Shown piece after piece: positions 17,311 through 34,001 of a DNA stretch of 41,568 bases; the stretch's first letter is position 1, and each line of letters starts with the position of its first letter. The DNA lies in contig DAIDAO010000001.1 in assembly GCA_027310575.1 (NCBI GenBank), positions 1-41,568 of the forward strand, in the 5' to 3' direction. The notes beneath the pieces were generated by a model, which was given only the letters and a program-made list of their open reading frames with translations, had not been told where the DNA came from and searched no databases. The translations under genes and the position numbers were made by a program. The stretch is from a bacterium (lineage in GTDB: Archaea; Thermoproteota; Nitrososphaeria; Nitrososphaerales; Gagatemarchaeaceae).

Positions 17311-18471
17311 CTACTCATCCTTCTTTTTCTCCCTGTTAACCGCTTGGAGATGCCCCGCGTTCTGGATTAGCGTCAGCCACTTGTTAGCGCCCTCGACCCT
17401 GATACCCGCCCTCTCTGAAGGGGTTTGACCGTCTAGGCTCTCGTGTGGCCGGATGTAGTTATGGTAGATTTGGAGCCCCTTCAGGATGGGCGTGTCCATG
17501 TTCTTGAGCCCACGCATCACCCGCTCCCTGTCCCTGACTTCGCCGTTCATGCGCTCCATCTTGTTGTTGTGGACTTGGCCCGCGAGGGCAATTTCCCTGA
17601 CATGGACGGGAACCTTTTCGGGGGTAGTCCTCCAAGCGATTTCCTTCTTGAAGGCCGAATGATAGGAGGGGAGCCCGTCCGTTATCAGAGTCTTTGGCGC
17701 TCGCCCGTTGGTGATGTCGATTCCCCGATGGAACAGGCCGCGTGGGTTGTGCCTCTCCTTGCTGTCCGCCACCTCTTGAGCAATCCAGAACCTAGTCTCG
17801 TCGTCCATCAGCGAGAACAGGTATCGCATATCCCCCTTGAATTTGACATACATCTCGTCGGCCCGCCAAGTCTCGCCTAGTTTCGGCTCGAAGTCCTTCA
17901 GGTATTCGTCCATGATTCCGACATACTTGCGAATCCACTTCAGGATAGCAACGTGGGAAACACTCACTCCTTGGAGTCTCAGAGCCTTCTGCGTGTTGCG
18001 AAGGCTCGCCCCTCCAAAGTAGATTTGCATCGCCATCGTTATCGCCTCTGGGCTCGTCCTCATCCGCTCGAAGCCGATGTTCCGAGAGAACCGTTTGCCG
18101 CACACATGACAGAGATACCTCTGGATGTCCCCGCCCTTGTGGTGGATTAGCCCGTCCTTGACAATGGCCTCCGCTCCGCAAGCGAAACAGGTCTGGTAAT
18201 CCAGAGGCACGACGCGCCTCGCGTTCTCTATTCGCCGACGAATCTGAAGCGAGAGTTCAACCGCAAAGGCGTGCTTACACTTCACGCCTCGGAACTTGAA
18301 GTCGGGGCATTCGCAGAGCCAACCGGACTCGGTTGAGAGGACGACGTATTCCCCGCTCCCCGACTGAGACCTCACGCGGTATTCGTTCTGGTCGAGCCTT
18401 CGGACGTTGGACTCGACCTTCGCAATCTCAGCGCCCCTTGAGGCGCGATAATCAAAAGCGGGGGAGTTCAA
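17311..18471 (-). CDS. IS6-like DDE transposase with SWIM zinc finger
   Basis: With TTG at 18471 the product has 386 residues. An in-frame extension to 18750 exists but crosses the promoter and operators, so it is rejected. Domains: SWIM finger C53-x-C55...C65-x-H67; zinc ribbon C95-x2-C98...C121-x2-C124; a helix-turn-helix-like region (GGASLRNTQKALRLQGVSVS, about 153-172); catalytic core with D205 (WRADEMYVKFKG), D265 (LITDGLPSY) and E306 (HNNKMERMNGEVRDRE). IS6 transposases are usually about 230 residues; the SWIM module is extra. The TTG overlaps the stop of a 29-codon upstream ORF (TTGA), pointing to translational coupling. Confidence 0.88.
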   Translation of the reverse strand: MNSPAFDYRASRGAEIAKVESNVRRLDQNEYRVRSQSGSGEYVVLSTESGWLCECPDFKFRGVKCKHAFAVELSLQIRRRIENARRVVPLDYQTCFACGAEAIVKDGLIHHKGGDIQRYLCHVCGKRFSRNIGFERMRTSPEAITMAMQIYFGGASLRNTQKALRLQGVSVSHVAILKWIRKYVGIMDEYLKDFEPKLGETWRADEMYVKFKGDMRYLFSLMDDETRFWIAQEVADSKERHNPRGLFHRGIDITNGRAPKTLITDGLPSYHSAFKKEIAWRTTPEKVPVHVREIALAGQVHNNKMERMNGEVRDRERVMRGLKNMDTPILKGLQIYHNYIRPHESLDGQTPSERAGIRVEGANKWLTLIQNAGHLQAVNREKKKDE

Positions 18472-18557
18472 TCGGACTGCCCCCTGAACGCTCGCTGATT
18501 GGCTTGGAACTCCTCGAAGTCCGCGCCCATCTCGAACCGTGCTTGTTCGGAAGTCAT
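18468..18557 (-). CDS. 29-residue leader ORF coupled to the transposase
   Basis: ATG at 18557 to TGA at 18468 encodes 29 residues, MTSEQARFEMGADFEEFQAN and a short basic-acidic tail. A TATA box (TTATATTG, minus strand, 18583-18590) places transcription start near 18560, so the ATG would be at the very 5' end of the message. The stop overlaps the transposase TTG. It may be a coupling leader that limits transposase synthesis or a small protein in its own right; no known family. Confidence 0.5.
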   Translation of the reverse strand: MTSEQARFEMGADFEEFQANQRAFRGQSD

Positions 18558-18566
18558 GTGTCCATA

Positions 18567-18609
18567 GGTGTAGATTGACACCAATATAACCCTTGTGTCT
18601 ATTGACACA
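18567..18609. promoter_or_regulatory. Twin palindromic operators between transposase and RHH gene
   Basis: GGTGT-6-ACACC (18567-18582) and TGTGTC-4-GACACA (18594-18609) share the core GTGT-N-GACAC type with ATTGACAC in both. Their centres are 27 bp apart. They overlap the transposase TATA box (18583-18590) and lie ahead of the TATA-like TTAAATAC (18623-18630) of the RHH gene. They are good candidates for binding by the adjacent ribbon-helix-helix protein. Confidence 0.65.
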
Positions 18610-18653
18610 CATAAGCACAGGGTTAAATACCGCGCCTGTCCGAGGGGGAGCCG

Positions 18654-18788
18654 ATGCAGAAGCGATACAATGTCGCAATGACAGAGGAGATGGAGAGGCG
18701 ATTGGAGGGAGAGCGGAAGAAGCACGCTCTTGACTCGATACCTGAGACAATCAGATTCATCCTCTCTGAGTATCTGGCGAAGGGCTAG
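18654..18788 (+). CDS. Small ribbon-helix-helix protein, probable transposition repressor
   Basis: A 44-residue ORF from ATG 18654 to TAG 18786-18788. The beta strand KRYNVAMTEEMERRLEGERK and the second helix SIPETIRFILSEYLAKG match the CopG/Arc fold, which is just this long. It is divergent from the transposase with two palindromes between them, so autoregulation and repression of the transposase is the likely role. Its 3' end overlaps the convergent passenger gene by 32 bases. A TATA-like TTAAATAC lies about 27 bases upstream. Confidence 0.75.
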   Translation: MQKRYNVAMTEEMERRLEGERKKHALDSIPETIRFILSEYLAKG

Positions 18789-19864: not shown

Positions 19865-22786
19865 GTGAAATCGGTTCATTCCCGTCATGTTCTCCTTTGC
19901 CGAGAGGTCGAGATAGACACGGCCGCAGAGAACGCGTTCAGCCTGCTTTCTCCTCCGCTCGTGGCTGCGCTGAGGGAGCGGGGATTCGACGCGCCGACCG
20001 ATCCGCAGGAGAAGCTCGTGCCGATCGTCCGGGAAGGGAAGAACGCCCTGCTGATGGCGCCCACGGGCACAGGGAAGACCGAGGCTGCGCTCCTCCCGAT
20101 ACTCGACGCGCTGGTGAGGGAGGGGGGCTCGAGGGAGAAGGGGACGAAGCTGCTGTACATCACCCCCCTCAGGGCGCTGAACAGGGACATGCTCGACAGG
20201 ATGCAGTGGTGGTGCAAGCGCTTCGACATCAGGCTCGGTGTGAGGCACGGAGACAGCTCGCAGGCAGAAAGGACGAACCTGAGCTTCGCCCCCCCTGACA
20301 TCCTGATCACTACCCCGGAGACCCTCCAGATCATGCTCGTGGGTAGGAGGATCAGGCAGAACCTGGCGAAGCTGCGGTGGGTCGTCGTCGACGAGGCGCA
20401 TGAGCTTTCGGAGGACAAGAGGGGGAGCCAGCTCAGCGTCGGCCTGGAGAGGCTGAGGGACGTGGCAGAGAAGGAGTTCCAGGTCGTGGGGCTCTCCGCC
20501 ACTGTGGGGTCCCCGGAGAAGGTGGCCCAGTTCCTGGTGGGAGACGGGAGGCCTTGCGAGATCGTCAGGGTGCCTGTCGAGAAGAGCCTCTCGCTGAAGG
20601 TCGTGGCTCCCAGGGCGACCGGGGACGACAGGGTCCTGGCGGAGGCGATCTACGCGTATCCCGAGGTGGCGGCGAGGCTGAGGACGGTCAGGGAGCTGGT
20701 GGAGAAGTACAGGTCAGTGCTCGTCTTCACGAATACCCGCTCCGAGGCCGAGGCGCTTTCGAGCAGGTTCAGGGTCTGGGACCCCGAGTTCCCGATCGCG
20801 GTCCACCACAGCTCGCTTTCGAAGGCGACCAGGGAGGCTGTGGAGAGGAACCTGAAGGACGGGAAGCTCTTGGGCGTCATCTGCACGAGCAGCCTGGAAC
20901 TCGGGATAGACATCGGGTTCCTGGAGTACGTGGTCCAGTACAACTCGCCGAGACAGGTGACCAGGCTCATCCAGAGGGTGGGACGCAGCGGACACAGGGT
21001 GGGAGAGGTGTCCAACGGGCTGGTGATCACGCAGGACTCGGACGACACGCTCGAGGCCGCAGTGCTCTGCAGGAAGTCTGTCATGGGGGAGCTGGAACCT
21101 CTCGAGCCAGTCTTCAAGCCGTACGACGTCGCGATTCACCAGGTCGCGGGGCTGCTGATCGAGCAGAGCAACTGGAACTTCGACGACATCCTGGCGCTGC
21201 TGAAGAGGAGCTACGCGTTCGCGGAGATGGACGGCGAGCGGCTGAAGAAGGTCCTGACATACATGAGGGAGAGGTACCCTCGGCTGGCGTACTACAGCGA
21301 GTCGGATGGGAAGGTGTTCCGGGCCAGGGACGTGAAGCCTCTCTTCCAGTACTACTTCGACAACCTCTCGATGATCCCGGACGAGAAGCAGTATCTCGTC
21401 CTCGAGGGGGACAACTTCGTCGGGACCCTCGACGAGGCGTTCGTCTCCGAGTACGGCGAGGTGGGGGTGAAGTTCGTCGAGGCCGGGAGGTGCTGGAAGG
21501 TGGAGCAGATCTACGGGAACAAGGTGTACGTGAAGGCAGAGGAAGACCCCACGGGCGCGGTCCCCCACTGGGTCGGGGACGAGATACCTGTGCCCCGCGA
21601 GGTGGCAGCCGAGGTCGGGGCTGTCAGGAGGAAGTACGCCGAGGAGCTCGAGAAGGGGACCGAGGACAGGCACCTAGACGAGCTGGTCAGGACCTACCCT
21701 GTCCCGAGGGACGCGCTGCTGGAAGCGCTGAAGGAGGTCGCCGAGCAGCATGCCGCGAAGCTCCCCATACCGTCGGAGAGGCTGATCACAGTGGAGAAGT
21801 GGGACAGGTACCTGGTCATCCAGGCTGCCTTCGGGCATCGGGTGAACAGGCTCCTGGCCAGGGTGATGGGGCACATGATCTCCGAACGGATCGGCCAGTC
21901 GGTGGCCGTGCACCAGGACCCCTACCGGATCGTGATCGAAGCTGACGTGTCCCCTCCCGCCGTGCTTTCGGTGATCGAAGAGCTCCACAAGCTCGACCTC
22001 AGGTCTGCCACGGAGAAGGCTGTGGAGCGGAGCGGCATTTTCAAGAGGCGGCTGATTCACGCTGGTAAGAAGTGCGGAGCCATAGCGAAGGACGCAGACT
22101 ACGCGAGCGTATCCATAGCGGGCATAATCGAAGCGCTGCGAGACACACCGGTGTACGAAGAGGCGATGAGCATGATCTTCCACGACGACTTCGACCTCGA
22201 AGGCGCGGTTGACGTCGTGGAGAAGATCAACGCGGGGGCCATCGAAGTCAAGCTCGTGGACTATGAAGCGCTGACCCCCATCGCGCGCATCGGCGTGGAG
22301 GAGATCAGCAGGAGGGGGGAGATAGTATCCCCGGAGAGGCTCAGGGCCCTTCTGAGACAGTCGACGAGGGCCAGGATAAACGAGACGTTCGTCGTGGCAG
22401 TCTGCACCAACTGCTGGAACTTCCTTGAGCTGAGGAAGGTGGGAGACCTGGAGGGCCTCGGGAGCTGCCCAGCCTGCGGGAAGCAGGCCCTCGGGCTCTC
22501 CACCGACTCCTACGAGAACGTCTTCTCGCTGGCCATGAAGGCGCGGAGCAGGGCGGACCTCCGTGGGAGCAAGCTGAAGCTCGTGGAGGCGCTTCGGAGG
22601 TCCTCGGAGCTGAGGAAGGAGTACGGCCACGCGGCGGACATGCTGATGGCGGGCAGGGGGATCAGGCTCGCAGACGCGGCCGCGCTCGCTGCGAAGATGA
22701 GGAAGGAGGGCACGGATGTGGTCGAGCTGATAATCGAAGGCGAGAGAGAGGCGCTGCGCAGGCGCTACTTCTTCGCCGCTTCCTGA
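19865..22786 (+). CDS. Lhr-type superfamily 2 helicase, first paralogue
   Basis: A 973-residue helicase. RecA domain 1 has the Walker A APTGTGKTEA (about 65-74), motif Ia ITPLRALNRDML, TTPETLQ, and DEAH in VVVDEAHELSEDKRG. Motif III is GLSATVGSPEK. RecA domain 2 has VFTNTRSEAEALSSRF, CTSSLELGIDIG and the motif VI region QRVGRSGHR. A winged-helix and the Lhr-specific core follow, and near residues 843-877 four cysteines (CTNC, CPAC) form a probable zinc knuckle. Lhr proteins unwind DNA or RNA and are linked to repair and RNA turnover. Start GTG at 19865 is the only usable codon before the conserved region. The 3' end overlaps the convergent MAGE-domain gene by 22 bases. Confidence 0.92.
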   Translation: MKSVHSRHVLLCREVEIDTAAENAFSLLSPPLVAALRERGFDAPTDPQEKLVPIVREGKNALLMAPTGTGKTEAALLPILDALVREGGSREKGTKLLYITPLRALNRDMLDRMQWWCKRFDIRLGVRHGDSSQAERTNLSFAPPDILITTPETLQIMLVGRRIRQNLAKLRWVVVDEAHELSEDKRGSQLSVGLERLRDVAEKEFQVVGLSATVGSPEKVAQFLVGDGRPCEIVRVPVEKSLSLKVVAPRATGDDRVLAEAIYAYPEVAARLRTVRELVEKYRSVLVFTNTRSEAEALSSRFRVWDPEFPIAVHHSSLSKATREAVERNLKDGKLLGVICTSSLELGIDIGFLEYVVQYNSPRQVTRLIQRVGRSGHRVGEVSNGLVITQDSDDTLEAAVLCRKSVMGELEPLEPVFKPYDVAIHQVAGLLIEQSNWNFDDILALLKRSYAFAEMDGERLKKVLTYMRERYPRLAYYSESDGKVFRARDVKPLFQYYFDNLSMIPDEKQYLVLEGDNFVGTLDEAFVSEYGEVGVKFVEAGRCWKVEQIYGNKVYVKAEEDPTGAVPHWVGDEIPVPREVAAEVGAVRRKYAEELEKGTEDRHLDELVRTYPVPRDALLEALKEVAEQHAAKLPIPSERLITVEKWDRYLVIQAAFGHRVNRLLARVMGHMISERIGQSVAVHQDPYRIVIEADVSPPAVLSVIEELHKLDLRSATEKAVERSGIFKRRLIHAGKKCGAIAKDADYASVSIAGIIEALRDTPVYEEAMSMIFHDDFDLEGAVDVVEKINAGAIEVKLVDYEALTPIARIGVEEISRRGEIVSPERLRALLRQSTRARINETFVVAVCTNCWNFLELRKVGDLEGLGSCPACGKQALGLSTDSYENVFSLAMKARSRADLRGSKLKLVEALRRSSELRKEYGHAADMLMAGRGIRLADAAALAAKMRKEGTDVVELIIEGEREALRRRYFFAAS

Positions 22787-23328
22787 GCCCGCGAGAGGAT
22801 CAGCGTCATCAGCGTCTTCTCGTCCACCTCGGCGTGCGTCCTCCAGCCTATGTGGAGCATGCCGCGGTCGTCCTGCTCCAGGTACCCCCTCTTGGCGTAC
22901 CTGTCAAGCGAGTAGTCGACCCGCCACTTCGGGAACTTCTCCCTGAGGAACTGCTCGACTTCGCGGCGCGCCACGCGGCCCTGCTTGGAGTTGATGAAGG
23001 CTATCGTCGCCGCAAGGACTGCCAGGTCGTCTATCCTGATGCCCGAGGTCTCCGCTTCGCTTATCGTGGGAGGCTCTTTGAAGCGCAGCAGGAAGCGGGA
23101 GGAGTCGTCAGTCCCGTCGGGCCCCTTGACCTCGAACACCTCGAGCCCCATCGGGGCCACGTCCTCGGAAAGGACCTCGATTATCTTCCGGTATTCCCTG
23201 CCGAGGTGCCTCTTCATCTCCCACCCCTTCACCCCCGGGTTGCGTCCGCGTTGCAGCACGAGGACCTGGAAGGCCCTTCTTACCTTCCTCTCCAGGAGCG
23301 CCTTGTCTGCGGTTTCTGATTCCATCAA
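22765..23328 (-). CDS. Nse3/MAGE-domain-like winged-helix protein (Smc5/6-type kite subunit)
   Basis: A 187-residue protein recalling the tandem winged-helix MAGE domain of eukaryotic Nse3. Matching landmarks, in order: LERKVRRAFQ (MAGE: LARKVNELVQ), YRKIIEVLSE, MGLEVFEVKG (YKLVELEP), RFLLRF (TYILIN), then WH-B with LAVLAATIAFIN...RREVEQFLREKF, KRGYLEQ (RQRYLEY) and GWRTHAEVDEKTLMTLIL (GPRTNLETSKMKVLKF). This was judged by eye from memory of the family. In eukaryotes Nse3 binds the Nse4 kleisin and DNA. Start TTG 23328 (TTGATG) overlaps the kleisin stop, so both are co-translated. A distant ScpB-like kite is the alternative. Confidence 0.72.
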   Translation of the reverse strand: MMESETADKALLERKVRRAFQVLVLQRGRNPGVKGWEMKRHLGREYRKIIEVLSEDVAPMGLEVFEVKGPDGTDDSSRFLLRFKEPPTISEAETSGIRIDDLAVLAATIAFINSKQGRVARREVEQFLREKFPKWRVDYSLDRYAKRGYLEQDDRGMLHIGWRTHAEVDEKTLMTLILSRAQEAAKK

Positions 23329-24083
23329 TCCTCACCCGTTATCGATATCGCGACCGACTTCGGCAGCCCTTTCACCTTCTCCGCGAGCGCCATCGTCCAG
23401 ATGTTCCCGGTGAGCGGCTCCGTCTTCAGCAGAGCCCTTCCTTCGCTGATCAGGAAGGCGAGCAGGTAGGCCCTCCTCACCTTCGACTCGAAGCTGTCGT
23501 CGCCTATGAACGCGCGGTAGTCCACCCACTCCCCGTTGGACTTCTGTAGCAGTTCCTCGTGCAGCTGGCTCAGGCTGCCCTCGAACTCGTCCCTCGTGAA
23601 CACCCCGAGGCTGACGAGGTCGGAGTAGTCTACGACCCCCGGCCTGGTGCCGTAGGTCCCGAACTGGTCCTTGAACCGCTCGGAGATAGGGGTCAGCTCG
23701 CGCCAGTAGACGAACGCCTTCTCGAGCCCCCTGGGCGAAAGCTGGTCCACCTGGGCCACCGGGTGCCAGCTCTTCACGAACGCCTCCGAGAGAGCCTCCT
23801 TCGGGAGGAGCTTCAGCTTGAGCTGGATGAGGAGCGGGTCGATGTAGAGGGCGCTCGCCCTCTGCTTCAGCCACTGGTCCTGGAGCTTGACTATCTGGGC
23901 CAGTTCGAGCATGGCCTCCGAGTCGACGAGGAGTTCGTCCAGGAACTTCAGCTCCGGGAGGCGCTGCTTGAGGATGAGTATCTTCTCCCTTATGTCGACG
24001 TCGAATGGGTTGGCGCTGCTCGTCTCGACGTCACGGCAGAGCTCGATGACCCTCAGGTAGTCGTCGAGCTTGGTCTGCTCCAG
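23325..24083 (-). CDS. Nse4-like kleisin
   Basis: The ATG at 23912 gives 195 residues, but coherent helical sequence continues upstream (LEQTKLDDYLRVIELCRDVE, then IREKILILKQRLPELKFLDE) to a CTG at 24083, one base after the SMC stop. Only CTG is available, because no ATG, GTG or TTG occurs between. That gives 252 residues. The N-terminal helices suit a kleisin that binds the SMC neck. The C-terminal winged helix WVDYRAFIGDDSFESKVRRA followed by AFLISEGRALLKTE and SVAISITGED parallels the Nse4 C-terminus (FDFVVDPHSFPRTVENIF, FIIRDGFARI, IIALSYRDWE). Its stop overlaps the MAGE-domain gene. Assignment is by eye and by operon position. Confidence 0.65.
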   Translation of the reverse strand: MEQTKLDDYLRVIELCRDVETSSANPFDVDIREKILILKQRLPELKFLDELLVDSEAMLELAQIVKLQDQWLKQRASALYIDPLLIQLKLKLLPKEALSEAFVKSWHPVAQVDQLSPRGLEKAFVYWRELTPISERFKDQFGTYGTRPGVVDYSDLVSLGVFTRDEFEGSLSQLHEELLQKSNGEWVDYRAFIGDDSFESKVRRAYLLAFLISEGRALLKTEPLTGNIWTMALAEKVKGLPKSVAISITGED

Positions 24084-24084
24084 G

Positions 24085-26121
24085 CTACTTCAGCTCCTTT
24101 ACTTCGGAGGAGCCGTGGACCGCCTGTACTGTGATGACGTGGGCGCTCCTGTCGAACACAGTGAGGATGGATGGCGTTATGACAAGGTACTGGGACGCTT
24201 CCCTCTGTTTCATCTGCGAGAGTATCATCCTGAACATCGCCTCCCTGTTCTTGGGGTCCATGTGGATGTCGAACTCGTCCATGGCCCTCAGAGGGGAGAC
24301 GATCCGCGCCTGGAGGGACAGTATGAACGCCATCAGCGCCACGGACCTCTCGCCCCCGCTCTGCGTGAACGGGTCCAGCGTGGTGGGGGCGCCCCCCCGG
24401 AAGCCGACGTATAGGTCGAGGCCGGCATCCTCGATGGCGTCAGCCTGCTCGAACTTGATGAAACCGCTCGCGTCGGCGGCGGAGAGCACAACCTGATAGG
24501 CGGGATCCACCGCCTCCACCAGGTCTTCCATGGCCCTCCTCCAGACGTCCTTTCTGGACCCCAGCTCGGAGAGCATCGACTTCTTGTTCTCCTGGAGCTT
24601 CGCGAGCTTCACCTTCAGCTCCTCGATGTTTCCAGAGTAGTCGTTGTAGATCTTCTCGGCGTCGTCTGGGACGTCCTGCATCTTCTGGATGTGGGCCGAG
24701 ACCAGCTTGAGCTCCTCGGACACCTCGTAGGGCTGGCGGGCGGTCTCGATCCTGGGACCGGCCTTCTCCAAGTCAGGGGCCATCTTGTCCAGCTCCGCCC
24801 TGTACTCCCTGGCGCTTCTCTCGAGGTCGTGCAGGTCTGACTCGGTCACCCTGATGCGGTAGGACAGGACCTCGGCCTTGACCCTGAACGAGACGTAGCC
24901 TTCTATGGTGCGCCTGATGAGGTCTTCCATCTTCGATATCTCGGGCTGGAGGGACGAGACCTCCCTGTCGAGCTCCGCCTTGCGGCGCTGGGCGTCCTCT
25001 TCTGCTGACCTTCCCTTCTGCTCGATGTACGTCGCGAGCTCCTTCAGCCTCTTCGCGGTCTTGTCCCCGCTCCCGGCGAGCAGCTCGTCTAGGGTCCCCG
25101 ACAGGCCTCCCAGGTCCTCCCTGATCGAGCGGTAGGCGTCCCTCGCCGATTCGTCCTTGGCCTTCTCCGACTCGGCCCTCACCAGGGCATAGTACAGCTT
25201 GCGGAGCTCGACCTGCTTGTCCAGGAGCGTCTGGTGCGTCTGCTCGGCGTCCTTCGTGACCTCCTCCTGCTGGGACTTCAGGTCCTCGAGGGCCCGCGTC
25301 TTCGACATGATCTTCTCCTCAGCCCCCTGCAGGGCTTTGCTCAGCTTGGCCTCTGTGCTCCACAGGAGCTCTTTCGACAGGAGGTCCCTGTGCTCGGTCA
25401 GCCTCCTCTTCTCCTGATAGCGGTCGTAGACCTGCTTCCAGTACTCAAGGGCCTGGTTGGCGTTGTCAATGAGCTGGAGCAGGGAACTCTCCTCGCCCAC
25501 GAGGCCGCTCAGCTCCTGCTCCGCCAGGACGATCCTCTGCCTGTACTCGGAGAAGCCGACCGCCTCTTCCACCATCCTCAGCCTCTCCTGAGGGGTGACG
25601 GCGCCGAGCTCCTCGATCATCCCCTGGTGCATGATTATCAGCAGGTTGTCCGGGTTGATCCCGAATTCGTGGAGCAGCCTCACCACCTCGCTCTTGTCGA
25701 TCTCCTTGTAGTCAGCCTCGAACCAATAGGACCCGTCGCGCCTGAGGTACCTGCTCAGCATGAAGGTGTCCGACTTCGAGTACGGGATGGGGCGCCTCCC
25801 TGACTTCGCGGAGTTGTCGAAGACGAGCGAGACCCGGGCGATGTCCTTGCCCCTGCGGATGAGGTCGGAGAGCTTCCTGGAGCGTTCGGTGTACGCCTGC
25901 CCGAAGGCGACCGAGATCGCAAGCAGGACGGACGACTTCCCCGCGCCGTTGGGCCCCACGATGAGGTTCAGCCCCTCGCGCAGGGGGATCCTCGCGTATT
26001 CGTAGCTCATGAAATTCTCTAGGATTATCTCCTTGACAGTCGTGAGGTGGGAGAGCCTCTCCTGAGAGACTTCTCTGACACTGCGTGACAAGCTTCGAGG
26101 CCTCGCGGACTGGAGGCGCAT
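24085..26121 (-). CDS. Short SMC ATPase with Smc5/6-type signatures
   Basis: A 678-residue SMC/Rad50-type ATPase. Walker A is GPNGAGKSS at residues 56-64; SDLIRRGKDIARVSLVF follows as in Smc5/6; the Q-loop is MHQGMIEEL (164-172); ABC signature SGGERS at 588-593; Walker B AMDEFDIHMDP (613-623); and QYLVITPSIL at 644-653, recalling the QYFLITPKLL of Smc5. Coiled coils fill about 195-335 and 373-535. Between them is only about 35 residues (GGLSGTLDELLAGS onward), where a normal hinge has about 150. It has no zinc-hook CxxC, so it is not Rad50. It probably works as a homodimer with the kleisin and MAGE-domain protein. The true start may be slightly downstream of ATG 26121. Confidence 0.8.
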   Translation of the reverse strand: MRLQSARPRSLSRSVREVSQERLSHLTTVKEIILENFMSYEYARIPLREGLNLIVGPNGAGKSSVLLAISVAFGQAYTERSRKLSDLIRRGKDIARVSLVFDNSAKSGRRPIPYSKSDTFMLSRYLRRDGSYWFEADYKEIDKSEVVRLLHEFGINPDNLLIIMHQGMIEELGAVTPQERLRMVEEAVGFSEYRQRIVLAEQELSGLVGEESSLLQLIDNANQALEYWKQVYDRYQEKRRLTEHRDLLSKELLWSTEAKLSKALQGAEEKIMSKTRALEDLKSQQEEVTKDAEQTHQTLLDKQVELRKLYYALVRAESEKAKDESARDAYRSIREDLGGLSGTLDELLAGSGDKTAKRLKELATYIEQKGRSAEEDAQRRKAELDREVSSLQPEISKMEDLIRRTIEGYVSFRVKAEVLSYRIRVTESDLHDLERSAREYRAELDKMAPDLEKAGPRIETARQPYEVSEELKLVSAHIQKMQDVPDDAEKIYNDYSGNIEELKVKLAKLQENKKSMLSELGSRKDVWRRAMEDLVEAVDPAYQVVLSAADASGFIKFEQADAIEDAGLDLYVGFRGGAPTTLDPFTQSGGERSVALMAFILSLQARIVSPLRAMDEFDIHMDPKNREAMFRMILSQMKQREASQYLVITPSILTVFDRSAHVITVQAVHGSSEVKELK

Positions 26122-26206: not shown

Positions 26207-29053
26207 ATGCAGTTGTCTGGCGAGACCGCGTTTGAGTCCCTCGCCCCGGCTGTGAGGGGTTTCCTTGCCGAGACCGGGATCGCTGCGCCCACCCCTCCGC
26301 AGGTGAAGGCGTGGCCCCTGGTCGCCAGGGGAGAAGACGTGCTCGTCATCGCTCCTACCGGTTCAGGCAAGACAGAGGCGGCGCTGCTCCCGCTGCTGAG
26401 CAGGCTGGTGCAGGAAGGGCACGAAGGCATTTCGCTTCTCTACATCACCCCCATGAGGGCCCTGAACAGGGACATGCTGAAGCGGCTGCAGACCTGGTGC
26501 GCCAAGCTCGGGCTCACGGTGGACATCAGGCACGGGGATACCCCGCAGTCGCAGCGGGCGAAGCAGTCGGCCCACCCGCCCGACGTCATGGTCACCACCC
26601 CCGAGACCCTGCAGGCCATCCTGCCCGGGAGGAGGATGAGGGAGAACCTTTCGCATCTGAAGGCGGTCGTCGTGGACGAGCTTCACAACCTGGTAGAGAG
26701 CAAGCGAGGGGTACAGCTCTGCGTGGGGTTGGAGCGGCTGAGAAAGGTGGCGCCCGGGTTCCAGCTGGTCGCCCTCTCGGCGACGGTCGGGACGCCCGAA
26801 GTCGCCGCAGGGTTCCTCTTCGGCAGAAGAGAGATGTCCATAGTGACTGCCGAGGCTCCGAAGGAGTTCACCTACGCAATCGAATACCCGGTCCCCGACC
26901 CCTCTAGCCAGACCGCAGCGAAGGAGACCTACTCCGCGCCGGACCTCGCCGCCCGCCTGTCGAGGATGAACTCTCTGATCGAGAGCCACGCCTCGACGCT
27001 GATCTTCGTCAACAGCCGGACGGTCGCGGAGATGCTCGGGGAGAAGCTGGCAAGGCTCAGGAAGGACGTCGGCGTCCATCACGGGTCCCTGCCGAGGGAG
27101 GAGAGGGAGCGGGTCGAACATGCCTTCAAGGCGGGGGAGCTGAAGGCGCTCGTCTGCACGAGCACGCTCGAGCTCGGGATCGACGTCGGTTCCGTGGACC
27201 TCGTGGTGCAGTACATGTCGCCCAGGCAGGTGACCAGCCTCGTCCAGAGGGTGGGGAGGAGCGGGCACAGGCTGGGAAGGGTCTCCAAGGGGGTCCTGGT
27301 GACCGTCTCCGCTGACGACGTACTCGAATCGGCTGCCAGCGTCACCTTTGCGGCCCAAGGGAGGATAGAGCCGACCCGCCCGTACTCCAACTCCCTCGAC
27401 GTGCTCGCGCATCAGATAGCCGGGTATCTGATGGACTTCGAGACCATGGACGCCGACAAGATGCTCGGCGAGCTGAGGAAGGCGGCCCCTTTCGCCAGCC
27501 TGAGCGAGGGTGCGTTCATCAGGACGGCCAGGTACCTCGCAGACCTGAGGAAGATCAGATTCGAAGGCGGGACGATGGCGAGGACGAGGCTCACGAGGGA
27601 CTACTACTACGAGAACCTGTCGATGATCCCGGACGAGACGCGGTACCTGGTCGTCGACGTGTCGTCGAACCAGACGGTCGGCATCCTGGGGGAGGAGTTC
27701 GTGCTTCTGAAGGCCAAGCCGGGGATCCACTTCGTCATCAAGGGGAAGGTGTGGCAGGTGGAGCAGATAGCCGAGGACAGGAAGATCTACGTGACCCCGG
27801 TCGAGGACCCGCTCGCAGCTGTGCCCGGCTGGGACGGGGAGATGCTCCCCATCCCCTACGACCTGGCGACGGGGACTGGGAGGCTGAGGAGGGACATCTC
27901 CGAGGCTCTCGACTCGGGGAACGAGGCAGTCGAGGCGGTCGAGGGGCGCATCCCTGCCGACGGCGCGGCGCGCGCGCTCGTCGTGGACCAGATCGCCGAG
28001 CACAGGAGGATGGGGGCGCCGGTCCCTTCGGACAGGCTGATCCTCTTCGAGGGGTTCGGCAAATACCTCATCGTGCACCTCTGCTTTGGGGAGTCTGTCA
28101 ACAGGACGTTCGCCTATGTCTTCGAGGAGATTCTGTCGAGGCGGGGGCTGGTCAGGGTCTGGTGGCTCGACGGGTACAGGCTGCTGATGGAGCTCACCAC
28201 GGACACGGAGGAGCTCGACCTGAAAGGGCTCGCAGCGGAGCTGATGGGGATCGCCCCGGACGAGCTGGAGAGGACGTACGCAGTTGCTGCGCAGAGAAAC
28301 TTCCCGTTTCCTGCACGCGTGAAGTGGGTGGCCGAGAGGTTCGGCGCCCTCAAGCGCGGGAAGCTCATCGCCCACCCGAACCTGTGCTCGCTCCCGACCA
28401 GGTTCGAGAAGACGCCCATCTTCGAAGAGGCCCTGCAGGAGACCGGCAGGGACCTCATCGACATGGAACGCGGGAGGCAGGTCCTGATCTCGGCCGCGAA
28501 AGGGGACATAGCGGTCGAGACCTTCCAGGCGGGGGACAGACCAACTCCCATAGCCTACAACCTCCTCTACAGGTACCTCGAGGTCCCCGAGGCCGTCGCG
28601 CCGGACTCCCTGGGGAAGTCGTCGTACCAGCGGATGAAGGCGAGCATCTTCGGGACCGAGGTGAGCCTGCTCTGCGTGAAGTGCGGGGCGGACCAGGGCC
28701 AGTCGACGGTCGGCGACCTCCCGGAGGAGCCGAAGTGCGGGGCCTGCGGCTCCGGCCTCCTGGTGCCGTGCTACTGGGGGACGGCGAAGCTCGCCGACCT
28801 GCTCAGGCGGAGGGGGGCGAAGGCCCAGCTCAACGACGAAGAGCGCGCCGAGCTTTCGAAGGCGAGGCGGAGCGCAGACCTGGTCCTGTCCTATGGAAAG
28901 AAGGCGGTGGTGGCGCAGACGGTGTACGGGATCGGCCCCCAGACCGCCTCCAGGATCCTGGCCGAGATGCACGACGACGAGGAGGCTTTCTACAGGGACC
29001 TGCTTGAGGCCAAGATACGCTTCGTCACCACCAGGCAGTACTGGGGGAACTGA
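26207..29053 (+). CDS. Lhr-type superfamily 2 helicase, second paralogue
   Basis: A 948-residue paralogue of the helicase at 19865. Walker A is APTGSGKTEA (about 49-58), motif II is DELH (VVVDELHNLVESKRG) rather than DEAH, followed by ALSATVGTPE, IFVNSRTVAEML, CTSTLELGIDVG and QRVGRSGHRLG. A four-cysteine knuckle (CVKC, CGAC) is near residues 824-848 and a helix-hairpin-helix-like VYGIGPQTASRILAEM near the C-terminus (about 905-920), which the other paralogue lacks. Divergent from the SMC operon and followed by an unknown gene and a phosphoesterase, which fits DNA repair. Confidence 0.92.
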   Translation: MQLSGETAFESLAPAVRGFLAETGIAAPTPPQVKAWPLVARGEDVLVIAPTGSGKTEAALLPLLSRLVQEGHEGISLLYITPMRALNRDMLKRLQTWCAKLGLTVDIRHGDTPQSQRAKQSAHPPDVMVTTPETLQAILPGRRMRENLSHLKAVVVDELHNLVESKRGVQLCVGLERLRKVAPGFQLVALSATVGTPEVAAGFLFGRREMSIVTAEAPKEFTYAIEYPVPDPSSQTAAKETYSAPDLAARLSRMNSLIESHASTLIFVNSRTVAEMLGEKLARLRKDVGVHHGSLPREERERVEHAFKAGELKALVCTSTLELGIDVGSVDLVVQYMSPRQVTSLVQRVGRSGHRLGRVSKGVLVTVSADDVLESAASVTFAAQGRIEPTRPYSNSLDVLAHQIAGYLMDFETMDADKMLGELRKAAPFASLSEGAFIRTARYLADLRKIRFEGGTMARTRLTRDYYYENLSMIPDETRYLVVDVSSNQTVGILGEEFVLLKAKPGIHFVIKGKVWQVEQIAEDRKIYVTPVEDPLAAVPGWDGEMLPIPYDLATGTGRLRRDISEALDSGNEAVEAVEGRIPADGAARALVVDQIAEHRRMGAPVPSDRLILFEGFGKYLIVHLCFGESVNRTFAYVFEEILSRRGLVRVWWLDGYRLLMELTTDTEELDLKGLAAELMGIAPDELERTYAVAAQRNFPFPARVKWVAERFGALKRGKLIAHPNLCSLPTRFEKTPIFEEALQETGRDLIDMERGRQVLISAAKGDIAVETFQAGDRPTPIAYNLLYRYLEVPEAVAPDSLGKSSYQRMKASIFGTEVSLLCVKCGADQGQSTVGDLPEEPKCGACGSGLLVPCYWGTAKLADLLRRRGAKAQLNDEERAELSKARRSADLVLSYGKKAVVAQTVYGIGPQTASRILAEMHDDEEAFYRDLLEAKIRFVTTRQYWGN

Positions 29054-29088: not shown

Positions 29089-29772
29089 ATGGTCCTAGCA
29101 GGCAAGGTCTTCCTCGTGAGGGAGAACTACGAGATCGACACGCTCGCAGAGAAGCTGAAGTCGTTCAGGATCGAGACCGAGACGAGCGTCGAGGAGAAGG
29201 AGTTCAAGCTGGTCACCGAAATAACCGACCTCAGCGTCGGGAAGGGGACCCTTGAAGGGAAGTTCTCCTTCGACACCGTGTTCGTGGTCCCGCACAGGGG
29301 GGAGCCGGTGCCTGTGCCGCGGACCTACGAGGCCCCGTTCACTTTCAACATGCACAAGGACAGGATGTTCCTCACGGTCTACGACAAGAAGAACAGGGCC
29401 AACAGCATCGCCAACGAGATGAGCAAGGCGGTGTTCATGAGCCTCGGCCAGGTCGTCGAGGCGAGGATAGACCCGGAGACTCTGAGGAAGTTCCACGAAG
29501 CGAACTTCGAGGACACGAAGGTCATATTCTACTCTGACGTGGACCTGCCGAACATAACGAAGCTGTCGCTCTACGGCGCGGAGCTGGGCAACACCAGCCT
29601 CTACAGCGACTACCTCACCCATGGGAAGCTCTGGTACATAGTGTTCAAGAGCAAGGCCTACGGTTACGTCTTCGGACTGACGAGGAACTGCATACTCACG
29701 GGCTTCAGCAAGATGGAGCTCTCCGAATTCAGGAATTTCGTAAATAGCCAGGTCCTCCCTCTCGTAGCCTAG
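29089..29772 (+). CDS. Conserved-looking protein of unknown function between Lhr and phosphoesterase genes
   Basis: I do not recognise this 227-residue protein. It has no signal peptide or membrane segment. It looks like a mixed alpha/beta soluble protein with a long beta-rich first part (EKEFKLVTEITDLSVGKGTL) and a regular second part (VIFYSDVDLPNITKLSLYGA, then GYVFGLTRNCILTGFSKMEL). The gene starts 35 bases after the Lhr stop and ends one base before the phosphoesterase TTG, so it is probably co-transcribed with both. Codon use matches its neighbours. Its place suggests a role with the helicase or nuclease. Confidence 0.75.
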   Translation: MVLAGKVFLVRENYEIDTLAEKLKSFRIETETSVEEKEFKLVTEITDLSVGKGTLEGKFSFDTVFVVPHRGEPVPVPRTYEAPFTFNMHKDRMFLTVYDKKNRANSIANEMSKAVFMSLGQVVEARIDPETLRKFHEANFEDTKVIFYSDVDLPNITKLSLYGAELGNTSLYSDYLTHGKLWYIVFKSKAYGYVFGLTRNCILTGFSKMELSEFRNFVNSQVLPLVA

Positions 29773-29773
29773 G

Positions 29774-30532
29774 TTGCTCAGGATCGTACCCGGAGAGGCG
29801 GCCCTGGTATTCTCGACGGCCGGGTCGAGCACCCTGCTCATATCCGATCTGCACCTCGGCCTGGAAAAAGAGATGGCCAAGAAGGGGTTCCGCCTCCCCG
29901 CCTATTCGGTGAGGATGGTGGAGAGGGTGAAGCGGATAGCCGAGAGCTGCGGGGCGAGGAGGCTCGCCGTCCTGGGGGACGTCAAGCACACGGTGGGGAA
30001 GGTCGAGGACATCGACTGGGGGGTGATCCCCTGGTTCTTCGACACCATGCTCGACCTCTTCGAGGCTGTGGAGGTGGTCCCCGGGAACCACGACGGCAGC
30101 ATCAAGACCGTCCTGCCGCAGCGCGTTGTGCTGCACCCTTCCCAGGGGGCGGTCCTCGGGAAGGGGAAGGGGAGGATCGGGGTAGCCCACGGCCACGCCT
30201 GGCCCTCGGAGGAGGCGATAGCGACGCGCAACCTCGTGATAGGGCACTCGCACTTCACCTACGAGATGAAGGACGCGCTGGGTTCCAGGACGAGGGAGGC
30301 GGTGTGGGTGACTGCGGACTACGACGTCGCCGAGCTCATGGAAGGAGCGGGCTTCAGGTCGAAGCTGGCCGGGAAGGGGAGGCTGACCGTCATGCCGCCC
30401 TTCAACAGGCTGGTCGGAGGGCAGCCCATCAACAGGAGCAGGTCATTCCAGTTCGGGCCCGTGCTGTCCTCCCGGTCGGTGAGCCTGGAGGATGCCGACA
30501 TATTCCTGACCGACGGGACGAGGGTGGAGTAG
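29774..30532 (+). CDS. COG1407-type metallophosphoesterase (ICC-like)
   Basis: A 252-residue calcineurin-like phosphoesterase. The metal-site motifs are in order: SDLHLGLE (about 24-31), GDVKH, PGNHDGS, HGHAWPSE and IGHSHFTYE. Archaeal COG1407 proteins and the bacterial MPE family are often encoded next to Lhr helicases and act on nucleic acids, so a nuclease or end-processing role with the upstream Lhr is likely. Start TTG at 29774 is one base after the preceding stop. Confidence 0.88.
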   Translation: MLRIVPGEAALVFSTAGSSTLLISDLHLGLEKEMAKKGFRLPAYSVRMVERVKRIAESCGARRLAVLGDVKHTVGKVEDIDWGVIPWFFDTMLDLFEAVEVVPGNHDGSIKTVLPQRVVLHPSQGAVLGKGKGRIGVAHGHAWPSEEAIATRNLVIGHSHFTYEMKDALGSRTREAVWVTADYDVAELMEGAGFRSKLAGKGRLTVMPPFNRLVGGQPINRSRSFQFGPVLSSRSVSLEDADIFLTDGTRVE

Positions 30533-33854: not shown

Positions 33855-33909
33855 TTGGCAAACTCTAGATAACTCTTCGAGGGGGAATTGACGAGGCGAT
33901 GTGAAGTGG

Positions 33910-34001
33910 TGGGCCGGAGCGGATTCGAACCGCTGACCATGGCGCGCCTGAGCGATTCGCCGTGTAAGGGCGACGTCCTAACCATGCTAGACGACCGGCC
34001 C
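33910..34001 (-). tRNA. tRNA-Val(TAC) with an intron at the start of the variable loop
   Basis: On the minus strand: acceptor GGGCCGG/CCGGCCC with A73, anticodon stem TCGCC/GGCGA around CTTACAC (anticodon TAC), T arm AGCGG-TTCGAAT-CCGCT. The variable region is 22 bases unless a 17-base intron is removed, which leaves the 5-base AGGTC and a 75-base mature tRNA. Confidence 0.9.
33939..33955 (-). other. tRNA-Val intron, position 44/45
   Basis: Central helix GGCG/CGCC, 5' bulge AAT, inner helix CGC/GCG with loop TCAG, 3' bulge ATG: a bulge-helix-bulge that, cut after the second base of each bulge, removes 17 bases. Confidence 0.82.

Follow-up and report, generated by a model that had tools for sequence, protein, structure and literature searches.

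SMC locus and its gene content

The window, that is, the whole stretch of 41,568 nucleotides analysed here (contig DAIDAO010000001.1, from an archaeal assembly placed in the Gagatemarchaeaceae), carries on its minus strand a gene for a short SMC ATPase, followed directly by a gene for an Nse4-like kleisin and then by one for a KITE protein, the ATG of which overlaps the kleisin stop codon (Table 1). The coordinates, strand, and length that a first-pass annotation had given for the SMC gene were correct; the position of its start codon is uncertain, and residues 1 to 28 are poorly conserved. CTG (24083 to 24081) is the probable start codon of the kleisin gene; close relatives have ATG, GTG, or TTG at this place, and one homologous locus (L016) likewise has CTG.

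Table 1. Genes and protein features of the SMC locus, in window coordinates
Feature	Position	Strand	Length, basis, or remark
Second Lhr-type helicase, convergent neighbour	19865..22786	plus	973 aa; 3' end overlaps KITE gene
Nse3/MAGE-like KITE, tandem winged helix	22765..23325	minus	186 aa
Nse4-like kleisin	23325..24083	minus	252 aa
Hinge-less SMC ATPase, Smc5/6 branch	24085..26121	minus	678 aa, stop included
C-terminal head half (residues 549-678), QSGGERS and DEFDIHMD	24088..24477	minus	Sequence, family alignment A3, AF2
Returning arm (residues 355-548)	24478..25059	minus	AF2; conservation rising again from 441
Arm tip, 7-residue turn at hinge place (residues 348-354)	25060..25080	minus	AF2; no hinge match; no CxxC
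Outgoing arm, single helix (residues 191-347)	25081..25551	minus	AF2 model
N-terminal head half with Walker A (residues 29-190)	25552..26037	minus	Pfam SMC_N, AF2 model, 3.26 bits/column
Walker A, GPNGAGKS (residues 56-63)	25933..25956	minus	Sequence
Lhr-type helicase, divergent neighbour	26207..29053	plus	948 aa
Linked 227-aa gene	29089..29772	plus	No Pfam or NCBIfam match
Linked metallophosphoesterase, PdeM/SbcD-related	29774..30532	plus	

The protein has the bipartite ABC-type head expected of an SMC protein, with Walker A, signature, and Walker B motifs. In an alignment of 38 family members (A3), the G, P, N, G, G, K, and S of Walker A were invariant; the signature SGGER occupies residues 588 to 592, and Walker B ends in MDEFD. 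The window genome encodes a single copy of this family along with a canonical, hinge-bearing SMC on contig C1.

Arms without a hinge

Between the two head halves, the AF2 model of the protein (mean pLDDT, 82.7; pTM, 0.52) places the antiparallel coiled-coil arm of an SMC protein, made up of helices 191 to 347 and 355 to 548, but the globular hinge dimerisation domain that would be expected at the arm tip was not found there: the chain reverses in a short exposed turn. Pfam SMC_hinge (PF06470) matched none of the 38 family members, the window protein included, and in a scan of the whole genome it scored above the cut-off only in the separate canonical SMC. A CxxC zinc hook was likewise found in none of the 38 members, as the first-pass annotation had already stated for the window protein.

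That annotation had also described the hinge as nearly missing, reduced to about 35 residues whose start (GTLDELL) recalls the first strand of a normal hinge, and had proposed dimerisation through a minimal hinge, the arms, or the heads. Its core survives, in that there is no hinge and in that dimerisation must differ from the usual mode, since none is present to serve. The structure prediction that it proposed for the monomer likewise contained no normal hinge. The 35-residue mini-domain, however, does not survive: residues 337 to 347 (GGLSGTLDELL) lie within the continuous outgoing helix, and the reversal is confined to residues 348 to 354. GTLDELL itself is helical in the model, not conserved, and without similarity to the hinge model, and a minimal hinge at this place was therefore rejected. 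On the predicted structure, the hinge is absent, not pared down.

At 0.15 nm per residue, the 157 residues of the outgoing helix would span about 23 nm, roughly half of the 49 nm quoted for bacterial Smc (PMC5526789). Two helix breaks in the returning arm of the model (residues 454 to 464 and 480 to 488) resemble the head-proximal joint of SMC arms and may correspond to it. The geometry of the arms in the model is not reliable because the models of the SMC and KITE proteins were built on 36 to 38 sequences only (38, alignment A3, for the SMC) and because the pTM is 0.52.

Conservation of the hinge-less architecture

A scan of genome contigs returned 255 relatives, and the best 80 of these 255 were kept. 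Nearly all of these homologues, from several archaeal phyla, are 580 to 695 aa long; their lengths run from 582 to 694 aa once copies with truncations or frameshifts and a single reading of 810 aa are set aside. The 810-aa homologue (L013) is longer at its N terminus and the frame of another (L021) is broken, both probably effects of start-site choice or assembly. Among 300 genomes from the phylum of the window, the gene was present in 128, and all unbroken full-length matches lay in open frames of no more than 762 aa. The short, hinge-free state is a conserved property of the family, the point that the first-pass annotation had suggested checking against homologues.

Conservation averaged 3.26 bits per column in the N-terminal head half and 0.81 at the tip (residues 331 to 385), the lowest stretch of the protein (0.67 to 0.97 for residues 321 to 380). 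The tip was also the part most variable in length, with 128 to 234 residues between two conserved arm residues, and it was wholly or largely missing in some homologues, e.g., those of about 583 aa in Methanomethylicia.

Position among SMC proteins

Searched against PDB sequences, the family profile matched Smc6 best (191 bits), followed by Smc5 (175), Smc2 (149), and archaeal Smc (148). Head domains (44 sequences, 342 columns) were also placed in a maximum-likelihood tree (LG+F+R4, with a single Rad50 as the root), where the hinge-less clade joined Smc5 and Smc6 of yeast and human with SH-aLRT and UFBoot support of 98 and 99, and eleven canonical archaeal SMCs and two Smc sequences from the PDB stood apart. 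The eukaryotic sequences in this tree are few and were taken from PDB alignments. Within the joint clade, support for Smc5 plus Smc6 as the sister group was lower (59.9/88). By this analysis, the heads of the hinge-less SMCs appear to be sister to eukaryotic Smc5 and Smc6 and not to the canonical archaeal SMCs.

Probable kleisin and KITE partners

The order SMC, kleisin, KITE is no peculiarity of the window: kleisin and KITE genes followed the SMC gene in 56 to 57 of the 81 loci compared (window included), and the operon is kept across phyla. A profile of the kleisin family matched yeast Nse4 (E, 8.8e-5) and human EID3 (E, 2.1e-4) in the PDB and, weakly, the N-terminal domain of ScpA (E, 0.14); 26 of 37 members matched Pfam Nse4_C, with a best E value of 3.5e-7. 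Assignment of the window kleisin to ScpA was rejected, as a search of the genome with Pfam SMC_ScpA gave no match to it. For the KITE protein, the family profile had a MAGE-domain protein as its best PDB match, at a weak E value of 0.29, and Pfam MAGE matched 5 of 36 members (best, 3.6e-4). Its AF2 model (pLDDT, 85.5) most resembled MAGE-G1/NSE1 and Nse1-Nse3-Nse4 among folds in the PDB, followed by JetB, MukE, and ScpB, with TM scores of about 0.6. When scanned singly against Pfam, the kleisin and KITE sequences of the window returned almost nothing (Nse4_C, 0.18), and a genome-wide search for MAGE gave no match, as did its controls; the kinship of both proteins is visible only with family alignments and folds. 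We assign the third gene to the KITE proteins with confidence, mainly on the match of its predicted fold, and consider it Nse3-like with less confidence.

An adjacent, co-inherited, kleisin-like gene thus probably supplies the kleisin partner of the SMC, and two features of Smc5/6 complexes, heads on the Smc5/Smc6 branch and an Nse4-type kleisin, appear to be present as judged from sequence. As for the KITE subunits of such complexes, one gene was seen, with a fold closest to MAGE/Nse3 and Nse1 and a weak sequence match to MAGE, and no second KITE gene recurred among the conserved neighbours of the operon.

Co-inheritance and lineages with apparently a single SMC type

Across the 300 genomes of the phylum, 124 had both SMC and kleisin, 4 had the SMC alone, 2 had the kleisin alone, and 170 had neither, so that the two occurred together in 124 of the 130 genomes having either (Fisher P of 8e-77, a value that ignores shared ancestry and is not readable as a probability). 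In ANME-1, most SMC loci lacked an adjacent kleisin gene. Loss of the partners was considered for this group and rejected: the kleisin was found in 14 of 15 genomes, always with an adjoining KITE gene, in 13 of them at another locus and in one beside the SMC gene.

In 15 genomes of ANME-1 and 6 of Methanomethylicia, no hinge-bearing SMC scored above the cut-off, nor did one in any of 21 genomes of one family in the phylum sample (f7), which we equate with Methanomethylicia because genome G022 and that of homologous locus L070 give identical match coordinates. The hinge model alone is no safe test of absence, as the canonical hinge is too divergent for the Pfam model in several of the families that have both SMC types. 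When a canonical SMC head was used as the query, the 15 ANME-1 genomes and 10 Methanomethylicia entries (some of them duplicates) likewise yielded no SMC other than the hinge-less one, the exception being a weak second match in genome G030 (907-aa frame; E, 1.2e-6), perhaps Rad50. Other families carried both SMC types. On the hinge-model and canonical-head searches together, the hinge-less machine seems to be the sole SMC machine in ANME-1 and Methanomethylicia, these absences being provisional in a set composed mostly of draft MAGs.

Three families from the order to which the window genome belongs (f2 to f4), probably ammonia oxidisers, had canonical SMC only (49 carry the hinge model). Neither the hinge-less SMC nor the kleisin was found in the 20 genomes explicitly listed for these families, an absence that would apparently reflect lineage-wide loss.

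A proposed reduced Smc5/6-type complex and its alternatives

The reading that we favour, at a probability of about 0.7, is that the three genes encode a reduced Smc5/6-type complex, consisting of a homodimeric, hinge-free SMC with half-length arms, an Nse4-like kleisin, and an Nse3/MAGE-like KITE protein, the assembly of which we infer. In SMC complexes generally, ATP brings the two heads together, and the kleisin connects one SMC at its neck with the second SMC at its head. Without a hinge, the ring can be closed only at the heads, by kleisin and KITE, which makes a DNA clamp the simplest working model. In this model, two SMC copies would meet at their heads through the usual ATP sandwich, with the kleisin spanning from the neck of the first to the head of the second; a KITE dimer bound to the kleisin would complete a clamp that holds DNA in the head region. 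An upper ring closed by a hinge would be lacking, and the arms would serve as short levers or run alongside each other. Given the operon with kleisin and KITE and the position on the Smc5/6 branch, dimerisation is more likely to depend on the heads, the kleisin, and the KITE protein than on the tip. Like Smc5/6, the complex would probably act in chromosome maintenance or DNA repair, with which the linked genes for Lhr helicases and a PdeM-like phosphoesterase agree. To the fuller claim, that a complete SMC-kleisin-KITE machine works hinge-free, is the sole SMC complex in ANME-1 and Methanomethylicia, and is the archaeal sister of Smc5/6, we give even odds.

Dimerisation could instead have stayed at the arm tips, with two helical hairpins packing as a small bundle, i.e., a mini-hinge without the hinge fold. 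The arm tip is where every well-studied SMC, MukB, and Rad50 protein dimerises, and it is exposed in the AF2 model; yet here it is the least conserved part of the protein, has no shared motif or cysteine pair, is wholly or largely missing in some homologues, and offers no sequence feature that looks like a kept interface. A dimerising tip would be expected to look different from the one seen, and we regard this arrangement as unlikely.

The protein might also be a repair ATPase of the Rad50/RecF or coalescin (ASRP) kind, working without kleisin or KITE, an idea encouraged by its length of about 680 aa, like that of coalescin and Sph, and by weak but significant scores of the Rad50 and ASRP models. 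The ASRP score, however, was 44.8 bits against a cut-off of 300, the zinc hook is missing, the head tree excludes Rad50, the kleisin and KITE genes travel with the SMC gene, and the window genome has a separate Rad50 with an Mre11-like neighbour (contig C18), all of which makes this identity improbable.

A Wadjet- or Lamassu-like system for defence against plasmids or phages is similarly improbable. PADLOC models of the SMC type did match the SMC protein (mad3, 4.1e-28; LmuB, 7.5e-17; JetC3, 5.5e-11), and the KITE fold also resembles JetB, but no PADLOC model matched the kleisin or the KITE protein, no JetD-like Toprim gene occurred among the conserved neighbours as it would in Wadjet (JetABCD), and near-universal, lineage-wide presence with conserved synteny is unlike the patchy distribution of defence islands. 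Finally, an ordinary SMC broken by deletion of its hinge would account for a length about half that of the genome's canonical SMC, but it can be dismissed given the same architecture in about 80 loci across phyla and in 128 of 300 genomes, the frame lengths in those genomes, and strongly conserved heads on a different branch from the canonical SMC.

Comparison with known SMC systems

The proposed reduced Smc5/6-type complex shares with eukaryotic Smc5/6 its sister heads, a signature and D-loop of the type SGGERS and DEFD.HMD, an Nse4-like kleisin, and, less certainly, an Nse3/MAGE-like tandem winged-helix protein. It differs in having one SMC instead of two hinge-joined paralogues, arms about half as long, and a single KITE gene in the operon in place of Nse1 and Nse3; no RING, SUMO-ligase, or Nse5/6 genes were seen adjoining the SMC operon. 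In the literature searched, no text was found on a missing hinge in the archaeal branch or on its operon with Nse4- and Nse3-like genes. A 2025 study by van Hooff et al. (Cell Rep 44:115855), which concerns the archaeal ancestry of SMC complexes, may cover some of the same ground.

Hinge-less SMCs and archaeal SMC5/6-related SMCs are each already known. The latter were reported by Yoshinaga and Inagaki in 2021 as branching with SMC5 and SMC6 (as described in PMC9389158) and, matched by description, are probably the same proteins as the hinge-less SMCs studied here; the accessible part of that account mentions neither the missing hinge nor kleisin and KITE partners. An SMC of marine Actinobacteria that has heads and arms and likewise lacks both a hinge and a zinc hook (PMC12153180) belongs to a bacterial metagenomic cluster that is annotated as ordinary SMC (COG1196), with no partner genes reported; the window family is set apart from it, again by description, as archaeal, on the Smc5/6 branch, and accompanied by kleisin and KITE. 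Coalescin and Sph (ASRPs) are likewise short archaeal SMC-like ATPases of similar length, but a zinc hook is present in nearly all of them and they make up a separate clade (PMC9389158), whereas the hinge-less SMC lacks the hook, falls short of the ASRP cut-off, and has partner genes. Canonical archaeal Smc-ScpA follows the same logic of ABC head and kleisin, with SMCs that in the genomes analysed here measure 1130 to 1260 aa and contain a hinge, against 678 aa for the window protein. A functional KITE subunit is reportedly absent from it (PMC7055376), whereas the proposed hinge-less complex has a KITE gene.

The hinge is central to models of how SMC proteins act (DNA entrapment, loop extrusion, gate opening). 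A conserved, hinge-free complex that has both kleisin and KITE would make it directly testable which steps need a hinge and, if it works as proposed, would mean that a hinge-closed ring is not indispensable for SMC-based genome maintenance. It would also offer an archaeal relative, with a simple three-gene make-up, of Smc5/6, the least understood of the eukaryotic SMC complexes, and suggests that Nse4 and an Nse3-like KITE partnered this SMC branch before eukaryotes. The lineages with apparently only the hinge-less SMC raise the question of how their chromosomes are organised.

Neighbouring genes and other features of the window

The operon lies between two genes for Lhr-type helicases, one divergent and one convergent, and loci of Nitrososphaeria, Methanomethylicia, and Hadarchaeota repeatedly have an Lhr gene close to the operon. 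The helicases and the linked metallophosphoesterase showed likeness, below the cut-off, to models of the ligase-associated DNA damage response helicase and of PdeM. This neighbourhood points to DNA repair without proving it, and the linkage with Lhr may be synteny without function. In 44 loci (the window and 43 that were fetched), ANME-1 included, the gene for the 227-aa protein lies close to that for the SMC; its product is a possible functional partner, kept near the SMC in ANME-1 though the kleisin and KITE genes have moved away.

Elsewhere in the window, a transposase gene (17311 to 18750) coincides with a local dip in G+C content (0.56 to 0.60), has similarity to the IS6 family below the cut-off, and carries an apparent N-terminal SWIM-type zinc motif as judged by eye. 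A tRNA-Val gene (anticodon tac; 33907 to 34001) is, at 95 bases, longer than usual and perhaps contains an intron.
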